The notes under the pieces are model-generated. The model saw only the letters and a list, made by a program, of their open reading frames with translations, made no database searches and was not told the DNA's origin. DNA of 36,020 nt from Methylobacter sp. (GTDB lineage Bacteria > Pseudomonadota > Gammaproteobacteria > Methylococcales > Methylomonadaceae): contig SCPZ01000067.1 of NCBI GenBank assembly GCA_004299305.1, forward strand, positions 1-36,020, written 5' to 3'. Shown piece after piece: positions 6,456 through 25,546 of the stretch. Every line of letters begins with the position of its first letter. Position 1 is the stretch's first letter. Made by a program: the position numbers and the translations under genes.

Positions 6456-7333
6456 ATTGTGGTTTCGTCGCCCTGATTGGGCGCCCCAATGTCGGCAAAT
6501 CAACATTAATGAATCATTTGTTGAAGCAGAAAATCAGTATCACCTCACGGAAGCCGCAAACAACGCGGCATCGAATTCTCGGTATTAACACGACCGACGC
6601 AGGGCAGGCTATTTATATGGATACGCCAGGCATGCATAACAGTGAAAAGCGGGCCTTGAATCGTTATTTGAACCGGACCGCTGATACGACCTTGCTGGGC
6701 GTCGATGTGATCGTCTGGCTGATCGATGGATTGTCCTGGCATGAATACGACGAGGAAATCTTCAAGAAACTGGAGCAGGCGGGGTTGCCAGTTATTCTTG
6801 CCGTTAATAAAGTCGATAAGGTAGCGGACAAGGAGGCTATTTTAACGTTCTTTAACGAAGCCCAGCATCGTTTCCCGTTCAAGCATTTGGTGCCTATTTC
6901 GGCATTAAAAATGACAAATCTTGAACAGCTGGAAAGTTTGATCATGGGACTGTTGCCTGAACAGGATTTGATTTACCCGGAGGATCAGGTTACTGACCGG
7001 TCCGAGCGGTTTTTGACTGCTGAAATCGTCAGGGAAAAACTGACCAGACGGCTAGGCGATGAGCTGCCTTATGCGCTTACGGTAGAGATCGAACGCTACG
7101 AAGAAAAACCCAATATCACCAAAATATACGCAATTATCTGGGTGGAGCGCTTAACCCAAAAGAATATTGTGATCGGCAAGGACGGCGAGATGCTGAAAAA
7201 AGTCGGCACCGACGCACGGCATGATATAGAAAAGCTACTTGGGCAGAAGGTTTATTTGCAACTTTGGGTTAAAGTTAAAAAAGGCTGGTCGGATAGCGAA
7301 CGCGCCTTGCAAAGCCTGGGCTTTAATGACTGA
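6452..7333 (+). CDS. era: GTPase Era
   Basis: A 293-residue Ras-like GTPase fused to a KH RNA-binding domain, needed for 16S rRNA maturation and 30S assembly. G1 is GRPNVGKS at about residues 10-17, followed by switch sequences ending in DTPG and by NKVD. The C-terminal KH domain is marked by IVIGKDGEMLKKVGTDAR. Length is normal. It starts inside the rnc stop and its last eight bases overlap recO, so rnc-era-recO is one translationally coupled unit. Confidence 0.98.
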   Translation: MNCGFVALIGRPNVGKSTLMNHLLKQKISITSRKPQTTRHRILGINTTDAGQAIYMDTPGMHNSEKRALNRYLNRTADTTLLGVDVIVWLIDGLSWHEYDEEIFKKLEQAGLPVILAVNKVDKVADKEAILTFFNEAQHRFPFKHLVPISALKMTNLEQLESLIMGLLPEQDLIYPEDQVTDRSERFLTAEIVREKLTRRLGDELPYALTVEIERYEEKPNITKIYAIIWVERLTQKNIVIGKDGEMLKKVGTDARHDIEKLLGQKVYLQLWVKVKKGWSDSERALQSLGFND

Positions 7334-8198
7334 ATCCGCTGTTTATTTGCAGCCTGCTTTTATTCTGCAGCAGCGCAAATACCGGGAAACCAGTCTGATT
7401 ATTGATGTGTTAACCCGGGATTTTGGCCGGATTTCTTTGCTGGCCAAAGGCGTCAGAAAAGCAAAGTCCAAGACAGCGGGGTTGCTGCAACCATTTATCC
7501 CCTTAACGCTTTCCTATTTTGGCAAGGCAGAGTTAAAAACACTGAGTGATGTCGAGCGTAGCGCTTGTTCCCCTCAGGCTGGCGGCATCTATGCCATTCC
7601 TGGAGATTGCCGCGCCGGTTCCCTACCGGCTAGCGGCATACACTCCATCCCTGGAGATTGCCGCGCCGGTTCCTTACAGGCTAGCGGTATACACTCCATC
7701 CCTGGAGATATAATTCAGCGGCCAATGGAGCTAAAGGGGCTTGCGCTTTATTGCGGTTTTTATGTCAATGAGTTGGTTGCTTGTTTTTTGCACAAATACG
7801 ATCCTCATCCCGATGTGTTTAGCTATTACGGCGAATGTTTGTCCGGTTTGGCTGACGGCTCTAACAGGGAATCGGTATTACGGCTGTTTGAGCTTAAGCT
7901 AATGGAGTGTGTGGGTTACGGTTTGCAGTTGGGATATGATGGCAATGACAAACCTATCGATGCCTTAAGGAAATATGACTTCAATGTAGGCCAGGGGCCG
8001 GTTGAAGCGATGAATGGGCGGTTTTTAGGCAAGACCTTGCAGGCGCTAAGTTCCAAGGAATTGAGCGATCCTCAGGTTTTAAGCGAAGCAAAAATATTAA
8101 TGAGGACGGTCATTGATGTTTATTTGCAGGGCAGGCAACTTAAAAGCCGGGCGGTTATTAATAAAGTCTTCGCAACTGCTCAGCGGCTGGAGAAATAG
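7326..8198 (+). CDS. recO: DNA repair protein RecO with in-frame repeat insertion
   Basis: RecO works with RecR and RecF to load RecA on SSB-coated gaps. The N-terminal OB fold (residues 1-77: ETSLIIDVLTRDFGRISLLA, then KGVRK) and the C-terminal helical domain (from RPMELKGLALYCGFYVNELV, about residue 132) are well conserved. Between them lie about 54 extra residues containing two near-identical 17-residue repeats (DCRAGSLPASGIHSIPG, 94-110, and DCRAGSLQASGIHSIPG, 111-127) and a diverged first copy. The total of 290 residues compares with roughly 240 for the family, and removing the insert restores normal length. The start ATG lies inside the end of era. The protein is probably still functional because frame is kept and the insert falls at a domain junction, but this is inference. 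Confidence 0.93.
   Translation: MTESAVYLQPAFILQQRKYRETSLIIDVLTRDFGRISLLAKGVRKAKSKTAGLLQPFIPLTLSYFGKAELKTLSDVERSACSPQAGGIYAIPGDCRAGSLPASGIHSIPGDCRAGSLQASGIHSIPGDIIQRPMELKGLALYCGFYVNELVACFLHKYDPHPDVFSYYGECLSGLADGSNRESVLRLFELKLMECVGYGLQLGYDGNDKPIDALRKYDFNVGQGPVEAMNGRFLGKTLQALSSKELSDPQVLSEAKILMRTVIDVYLQGRQLKSRAVINKVFATAQRLEK
7558..7709 (+). repeat. 51-bp tandem repeat inside recO (three units)
   Basis: Units at 7558-7608, 7609-7659 and 7660-7709 have a period of exactly 51 bases (17 codons). Units 2 and 3 differ at only a few positions and unit 1 is more diverged. Each of the better units holds two small dyads: CTCCATCCCTGGAG, and GCCGG with CCGGC around TTCCCTA. This is palindromic repeat DNA that has become coding. 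Confidence 0.9.
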
Positions 8199-8239
8199 AG
8201 CGCGGATTAGACTGTCGAATTTAAAAAAAATCAATTTTT

Positions 8240-8404
8240 TCCACGAAAAGCACGAAAAGCACGAAAAAAATGAATGGAGAAAAAGTGCGAAAAGAGCAGG
8301 GTATCAATCCATTTAAAGCATTTTTTGTCACTATACCTGGAGCAACACCGGACCAAGTTTGAGCTATAAAAGATTTTTTTTCGTGCTTTTCGTGCCTTTC
8401 GTGG
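8240..8404. repeat. Inverted-repeat element, family C copy 2
   Basis: Arms TCCACGAAAAGCACGAAAAG and the facing CTTTTCGTGCCTTTCGTGGA are complementary over about 32 bases with two mismatches and are separated by about 100 bases. This is the cleanest copy of the family also seen at 2038-2217 and 25386-25546. It fills the recO-pdxJ gap, and the right arm ends 16 bases before the pdxJ start, so its folding could affect pdxJ translation. Confidence 0.85.
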
Positions 8405-12130: not shown

Positions 12131-12156
12131 AGTCGCAGGGCGTCATTAAAAAAGGT

Positions 12157-12184
12157 GCAAGGCAAAAGGCGCAAGGCAAAAGGC
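12157..12184. repeat. 14-bp direct repeat, two perfect copies
   Basis: GCAAGGCAAAAGGC occurs twice back to back in the gap between pyrF and the TauE/SafE gene, with partial copies on both sides (AAAGGT and GTAAAG). It resembles the GGTAAAA heptamer array on the other side of pyrF. Confidence 0.8.
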
Positions 12185-12222
12185 GTAAAGAGGGCCGACA
12201 TGCCACCCTTTTTGACTCGAAT

Positions 12223-12948: not shown

Positions 12949-12962
12949 GGTTAAGATACAAA

Positions 12963-12993
12963 GGTAAAAGGTAAAAGGTAAAAGGTAAAAGGT
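12963..12993. repeat. Heptanucleotide tandem repeat (GGTAAAA, 4.4 copies)
   Basis: GGTAAAA is repeated four times plus GGT, ending exactly at the base before the rhodanese stop codon. Pure heptamer arrays are prone to slippage, so copy number may vary between strains. It lies between two co-oriented genes, upstream of pyrF, where length change could alter spacing to a promoter or ribosome-binding site. Confidence 0.9.
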
Positions 12994-13377
12994 TTATTCG
13001 GTCACTAAGCCTTGTTCATGCCAAGCCTGTATTCCACCATTCATTAAGTAAACCTTGGAAAATCCCGCCGCCTTTAACATCAGTTGGGCTTGTGCGGAAC
13101 GTAGTCCGGCTTGGCATTGGGTGATGACGGGGAGGTTTTTATAGCGTTCAAGTTCCGGTAGCCGTTCATTCAGCTGGGATAGCGGTATATGAATGGCGCC
13201 GTGAATATGGTGTTCATTCCAGTCGCTATTTTCACGCACATCGACAATAACCGCCTTGTTCCTGACACGCATGGTTGCCGCTTCTTTAGCCGAGATAACA
13301 TCTGTTTCCGCCATCGCAAAAGGGCTGATCATTAACAAAAAAACACCAATCCGGCAATACCTTGAAGATAGACCCAC
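12994..13377 (-). CDS. Periplasmic rhodanese-like domain protein
   Basis: A 127-residue protein with an N-terminal signal peptide (about 1-23, cleavage near AMA/ETD) followed by one rhodanese domain. It has VIVDVRENSDWNEHHIHGAI and an active-site loop, CQAGLRS, with Cys88 as the likely persulfide-carrying residue. The loop length is that of single-domain PspE/GlpE-type sulfurtransferases. It presumably handles sulfane sulfur or thiols in the periplasm; the acceptor is unknown. It is transcribed toward pyrF. Confidence 0.9.
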   Translation of the reverse strand: MGLSSRYCRIGVFLLMISPFAMAETDVISAKEAATMRVRNKAVIVDVRENSDWNEHHIHGAIHIPLSQLNERLPELERYKNLPVITQCQAGLRSAQAQLMLKAAGFSKVYLMNGGIQAWHEQGLVTE

Positions 13378-25385: not shown

Positions 25386-25546
25386 AAAAACCGCGGTTTA
25401 TCCACGAAAAGCACTAAAGACACTAAATAAAACAATATGTTGTATTGATTTAGTAACTCACCCTTTGGGTAACGGCCTACGGTTTGATAACCTTTTGGAG
25501 TTTTTCGTGCTTTTCGTGTTTTTCGTGGACGAAATGATTTTTCTAG
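25386..25546 (-). repeat. Inverted-repeat element, family C copy 3
   Basis: TCCACGAAAAGCACTAAAG on the left and CTTTTCGTGTTTTTCGTGGA on the right form the arms. Read on the minus strand, the element and its outer flanks (CTAGAAAAATCATTTCGTCC and GCGGTTTTT) match the copy at 2038-2217, including part of the centre (GGGTGAGTTACT against GTGTGAGTGGTT). It is immediately upstream of cinA, so it may carry or block the cinA-uup promoter region. Confidence 0.82.

Follow-up and report, generated by a model that had tools for sequence, protein, structure and literature searches.

The window, by which we mean the whole 36,020 bp stretch of Methylobacter sp. DNA analysed here, contains a recO gene whose reading frame is open across all 290 codons and which carries three head-to-tail 51-nt units at spacings of 51 and 51 according to a repeat finder (Table 1); Tandem Repeats Finder assigns the array a period of 51 and a score of 209. 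Identity is 73% between units 1 and 2, 71% between units 1 and 3, and 94% between units 2 and 3, and unit 1, the most diverged, is probably the oldest of the three. A first-pass annotation of this DNA had described three in-frame 51-bp units, two of them nearly identical and each holding small palindromes, and these observations are borne out: unit 2 folds as two hairpins when analysed as DNA, with z = -5.5 (+ strand) and -5.6 (- strand) relative to shuffled sequences. Its location of the array is likewise correct except for the start, since unit boundaries set by comparison with empty sites in relatives give 7557-7709, or 153 bp, one base more than the 7558..7709 proposed.

Table 1. Coordinates of recO, its array of repeat units and associated structures in the window
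Feature	Position	Strand	Description	Basis or remark
recO	7326..8198	+	290 codons; 51-residue insert = residues 78-128	Pfam RecO_N, RecO_C; 3q8d alignment
element copy 1 in recO	7557..7607	+	encodes RSACSPQAGGIYAIPGD	model match 54.2 bits; 73% identical to copy 2
element copy 2 in recO	7608..7658	+	encodes CRAGSLPASGIHSIPGD	model match 75.8 bits
element copy 3 in recO	7659..7709	+	encodes CRAGSLQASGIHSIPGD	model match 67.8 bits; 94% identical to copy 2
codon left of recO insertion point	7554..7556	+	relative's empty allele GTCGAA^ATGATTCAG	recO site, 22 genomes
right flank ATA of recO array	7710..7712	+	starts with the A typical of +1 after non-tandem copies (68/68)	
hairpin A, copy 2	7608..7638	.	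12-bp stem, bulged; 5-nt loop	DNA fold; inner-stem covariation
hairpin B, copy 2	7643..7656	.	5-bp stem, 4-nt loop	DNA fold

Pfam places RecO_N upstream and RecO_C downstream of the insert, so the array does sit between the RecO domains as the annotation had stated. Alignment with E. coli RecO (3q8d) takes residues 9-78 to chain positions 5-74 and residues 130-280 to positions 75-230; the gap between them means that about 51 residues are extra and that their removal restores normal family length, again in agreement with the earlier claim. Structure models were unusable for the inserts in RecO (mean pLDDT 59.8, with residues 1-133 below 50) and in DnaN (mean pLDDT 32.5), a second host discussed below. 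All three units were recovered when the genome was searched with a covariance model of the element, built from 24 copies and applied to this genome at a threshold of E 0.01. A model search of the window alone returned the middle recO unit and one chance-level match only, presumably because adjoining matches overlap by 1 base, which would account for the loss of units 1 and 3. An Rfam scan of the window at the gathering score found a single tRNA and no known RNA family at recO.

Other repeats in the window are a 7-bp tandem repeat (AAAGGTA, 4.9 perfect copies, 12960-12993) directly after the stop of a minus-strand ORF at 12994-13377, a 14-bp repeat of 2.6 copies (12150-12185), and CACGAAAAG-like repeats following recO (8230-8400), with a similar repeat at 25492-25527.

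Dispersal of the unit and its residence in genes

The 51-bp unit is widely present outside recO. A DNA search with a 98-base query (approximately two units) gave 35 matches in the same genome with E no higher than 10, of which 20 fell below 0.005, and the covariance model gave at least 65 (150 of 2,871 candidates scored). Model searches found the element in every one of the 23 Methylobacter genomes searched, with 3-126 matches each. An order-wide search with stricter filters found matches in 60 of 201 genomes, 58 of which belong to the same family, and a class-wide search found them in 10 of 232, 8 of these outside the order. Carriage by phage or plasmid was not detected, there being no exact pattern match in viral_contigs and no match in a plasmid collection. 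The detailed analyses use the 55 strongest of the 65 copies of the genome under study, together with 60 stretches from the top of the match list of other genus genomes, in which 89 copies passed the score cut-off; all 89 are exactly 51 bp long. The genome also contains a second, related family of approximately 51-bp palindromic repeats, many copies of which end in CCATGGCAGTC or similar, arranged in tandem at 51-bp steps in places and lying inside ORFs in places (e.g. L120 G000:C2:3439-3642, L107, L113, L118).

Copies of the element reside mainly in genes. With both families counted, 42 of the 55 copies examined fall in open frames of 200 codons or more; some of these fall only close to the end of a frame, so that a different start could leave the copy outside. 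Hosts identified by Pfam include ValS (two sites), DnaN, GlnE, UvrD, FolP, RecO and a histidine kinase, as well as a glycosyltransferase, an aminotransferase, a nitrilase and an ABC ATPase, the last holding a copy of the second family. In ValS, GlnE, DnaN, UvrD, the aminotransferase, the glycosyltransferase, the nitrilase and the ABC ATPase, the Pfam match runs across the insert and is 13-22 residues longer than the profile stretch; in FolP and the histidine kinase the insert falls outside the matched stretch. When the 30 copies of this genome scoring at least 54 bits are combined with the 89 genus copies, 109 of 119 fall in open frames of 200 codons or more, compared with 77.1% of 3,777 positions drawn at random from these loci, and 83 of 119 have 40 codons on both sides, compared with 66.2% of random positions. 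This indicates that genes are not avoided, at least among high-scoring copies.

The first-pass annotation had interpreted the array as palindromic repeat DNA domesticated in recO. A palindromic repeat did enter recO in frame, but neither domestication nor the status of recO as a special case is supported, because the same element occupies dozens of other open frames in this genome. The insert is very probably selfish DNA in a coding sequence, not a RecO-specific domain.

Empty and filled sites in relatives

The recO site is readable in 22 of the 23 genus genomes and is empty in 9, while 5 carry 17 extra residues, 1 carries 34 and the genome under study carries 51; the remaining six hold off-size inserts of 27, 14, 11, 8, 7 and 6 residues, all of them in frame. 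Unit number thus varies as had been suspected, with 0, 1, 2 or 3 units in recO of different species. Comparison of the empty allele, GTCGAA^ATGATTCAG, with the filled one, GTCGAA-[51 bp]-ATGAGTCAG, shows that no base is duplicated. At dnaN (22 of 23 genomes readable) there are 13 empty sites, 7 with 17 residues, 1 with 34 and 1 with 21, and the element lies in the opposite orientation at GACGAT^AAAGTA; the DnaN alignment comprised 14 of the 22 genomes. At glnE (20 of 23 readable) there are 15 empty sites, 4 with 17 residues and 1 with 34, at CCCG^ATACC. M. tundripaludum SV96, for example, has an empty recO site and a single unit in glnE. Insertion at these three genes is therefore base-exact, 51 bp in length and without target duplication, in two reading phases and both orientations. 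In a family-wide search RecO was matched in 100 of 121 genomes, and among the matches listed outside the genus its halves adjoin with no insert seen.

These alignments rule out an ancient conserved RecO domain, the insert being absent from nine of the 22 genus genomes and from nine further Methylococcales sequences (L066-L069, L071-L073, L075, L076; L065, which has a stop, L070 and L074 were left out). It is also very unlikely that RecO has domesticated the insert for a function of its own. An insert or its remnant does occupy the site in 13 of 22 genomes, between two functional domains, but the 9 genomes without it, the six off-size inserts reduced to as little as 6-8 residues, and the occurrence of the same peptide in unrelated proteins all argue against such a role. 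Because the array is tandem and the assembly a draft in 144 contigs, an assembly artefact, or a local duplication of native recO sequence, was also considered. We consider this extremely improbable given that inserts occur at the recO site in independent assemblies (e.g. 27 residues in Ca. M. oryzae KRF1) and that the unit is found genome-wide with base-exact empty sites.

Presence of the insert was mapped on a tree built from the insert-free parts of RecO, DnaN and GlnE, in which some branches are weak; it requires at least 8 changes at recO, at least 6 at dnaN and at least 4 at glnE. This patchiness suggests that sites fill, empty or are exchanged often. In another genus of the family, one genome (G050, L256) has a ValS frame, identified by flanking sequence, with at least 2 units at each of the two sites occupied in ValS here. 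In six genomes (L182, L183, L196, L202, L209, L223) a single gene, whose open frame spans 600-652 codons within the stretches read, contains 1, 1, 2, 2, 4 and 2 units, respectively, all in frame. The 21-residue insert in dnaN of G006 (L138) contains a GTAG...CTAC palindrome nested inside the element with the frame open, and in glnE of G012 (L158) hairpin A has its loop in the opposite sense to that of the other copies, as a flip of the hairpin would produce.

Alignment of the flanks reveals a target signature. Position +1 is A in 68 of 68 copies that lack a following unit, though the model used to choose copies includes this column and so slightly favours A; at +2, 67 of 68 have A or T, and at -4, 53 of 62 have C. 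The A at +1 is also present in the three empty alleles (recO, dnaN, glnE). The target consensus is approximately C-N-N-N^A-W-A-A, with insertion just 5' of the A in either orientation.

Fold, tandem growth and reading frame

The element consists of a bulged 31-nt hairpin followed by a 14-nt hairpin, and each strand folds in this way as single-stranded DNA (consensus z of -3.1 and -3.5). Among 86 distinct copies, six pairs (6-26, 7-23, 8-22, 10-20, 12-18 and 37-48) exceed all 500 shuffles in Watson-Crick count. Pair 10-20, for example, is Watson-Crick in 80 of 86 copies compared with 34.3 by shuffling, and is compensated in 35. The outermost pair, 1-31, is unsupported (22 of 86), and the other hairpin pairs hardly vary and are uninformative. 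Pair 37-48 is Watson-Crick in 20 of 86 copies and A-C in 63, equivalent to G.T on the minus strand, while G.T never occurs on the plus strand; this hints, but only hints, that folding takes place on the minus strand.

Neighbouring units resemble one another more than chance would predict. Across 21 adjacent pairs, some of which share a unit, mean identity is 0.895 compared with 0.862 for shuffled pairs (0 of 2,000 shuffles as high), and the variable stem base is common to 16 of 21 pairs where 7.8 are expected. The target A is absent at nearly all inner unit junctions. Judged from these alignments, local duplication would be the simplest cause of the extra tandem units. Slippage, by which the first-pass annotation had suggested that unit number could vary, or unequal crossing-over is accordingly plausible for the added units, but the first unit is an insertion. 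Some neighbouring units have different stems that are each well paired (L202, L204, L223, L229), and in such cases a second element may have inserted beside the first.

The consensus has no stop in any of its six frames, and each unit adds 17 codons. At this base composition six open frames also arise in 12.6% of dinucleotide shuffles and 7.0% of plain shuffles, which makes the property weak as proof of design. Frame use is more informative: relative to target availability it is skewed for 61 copies (chi-square 56.3) and for 37 sites when one is counted per gene (chi-square 21.6, p = 6e-4). The 37 sites are distributed among the frames as 20 (the IARDGVYAASLSGTGAA frame), 6, 6, 3, 2 and 0, compared with expectations of 9.7, 6.8, 3.4, 7.4, 6.9 and 2.6, of which the smallest cells (2.6, 3.4) temper the test; copies near ORF ends, later array units and gapped copies of the genome under study were dropped from both tests. 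Because frame use is skewed and the off-size recO inserts are in frame, the sequence data favour a translated peptide under purifying selection.

An alternative in which the protein is normal, because the ribosome skips the inserted RNA or because that RNA is cut out, is suggested by the abundance of hairpins inside essential genes; it would also fit the six open frames, so openness by itself proves nothing. That alternative requires neither skewed frame use nor in-frame off-size inserts, yet both are seen, and we regard it as having very little chance of being correct.

A further reading is that the element has been shaped by selection to be protein-compatible, with a fixed length of 17 codons, every frame free of stops and residence mainly inside essential genes. 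We offer this tentatively and think it somewhat doubtful. In line with it, related repeats in another family of the class (L239-L253; G413, G307) have 0 of 14 copies in an open frame of 200 codons (the longest is 162; 2 of the 15 stretches contributed none at the cut-off). Their tandem units also seem less strictly spaced, at 50-53 in four pairs whose ends are approximate.

Mobility and comparison with known systems

Taken together, the element is very likely a selfish, non-autonomous coding palindrome that behaves like Rickettsia palindromic elements (RPEs) and expands in tandem and in frame. It would be moved in trans, by way of a folded strand, by a recombinase that may be a single-strand transposase of the HUH (Y1) type; extra tandem units would then arise mainly by local duplication, through slippage or unequal crossing-over; and the peptide would be translated and merely tolerated, with selection purging insertions in frames that yield bad peptides. 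In RecO, the element would have inserted into the linker that joins the OB fold to the helical domain and subsequently grown to three units in the lineage of this genome. The folded ends, the lack of target duplication and a flank conserved on one side are reminiscent of single-strand HUH (Y1) transposition, and IS200/IS605-type MITEs combine the same three features, their ends being hairpins. The empty sites of recO, dnaN and glnE agree with such MITEs in lacking a target-site duplication. No parent element or linked transposase of the present element was found in its genome: the six Y1-transposase loci (6/6) contain 0 element matches, revealing no mobilising enzyme, and a search for a parent element by its right end gave 28 matches, all 28 within whole-model matches and none separate.

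An overlapping explanation, differing in the enzyme and the family name, is that this is a REP-type element moved in trans by a RAYT (REP-associated tyrosine transposase). The hairpin is bulged as in REPs and no target is duplicated, and the genome does contain a Y1-transposase locus with GTAG palindromes. At that locus (L130, G000:C131) a Y1-type transposase match accompanies three GTAGGAGCGGGCC palindromes, possibly a RAYT-REP system unrelated to the element. Published REPs, bearing GTAG/CGTC, are short hairpins, some of which lie inside ORFs, including those of DNA-repair genes, with clusters coding for 43-82 residues, so far as the cited account describes them (PMC3733652). They are short imperfect palindromes of 20-40 bp, a range that includes the 31-nt hairpin A, although the whole unit is longer (51 bp). 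REPs of the GTAG type go with a linked RAYT that has the repeat on its flanks. Against this explanation, the consensus has no GTAG/CGTC end, starting with CGCC and ending with CGAT; the GTAG palindromes at L130 are of another kind; and no copy of the element was found at the six Y1 loci of this genome. Moreover, REPs are by that description mostly intergenic and predominantly head-to-head dimers (PMC3733652), in contrast to the 109 of 119 copies found here in long open frames and to the head-to-tail 51-bp arrays. We therefore think a RAYT origin unlikely, though deserving of consideration.

PARCELs share with the element a palindromic, tandem, in-frame organization with a fixed codon number per unit. 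They are described as 25-residue amphipathic units in ORFs lacking assigned functions (PMC2996958), unlike the 17-residue inserts in housekeeping enzymes found here. RPEs, with intragenic REPs the nearest systems in behaviour, are likewise scattered palindromes that sit in frame within unrelated genes and add a peptide to them; by published description they are approximately 150 bp (PMC10969869) rather than 51 bp. Relative to that description, the element is further distinguished by its two hairpins, six open frames, tandem in-frame arrays, measured target signature and free-living methanotroph host. A search of one literature collection found no published description of the 51-bp element, and in the accounts cited coding palindromes come mainly from Rickettsia and, among REPs, are the minority (PMC10969869, PMC3733652). 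Here, in a free-living genus with cultured strains, the beta clamp, ValS, GlnE and RecO differ by exact steps of 17 codons, and there are empty alleles for comparison and a target signature. Two questions thereby become testable: which agent mobilises coding palindromes, and with what frequency essential proteins gain peptides from selfish DNA. Annotators are also warned that such 17-residue inserts are not domains. We call the element a coding-palindrome variant, distinct from RPEs in its length and from REPs in its end tag.
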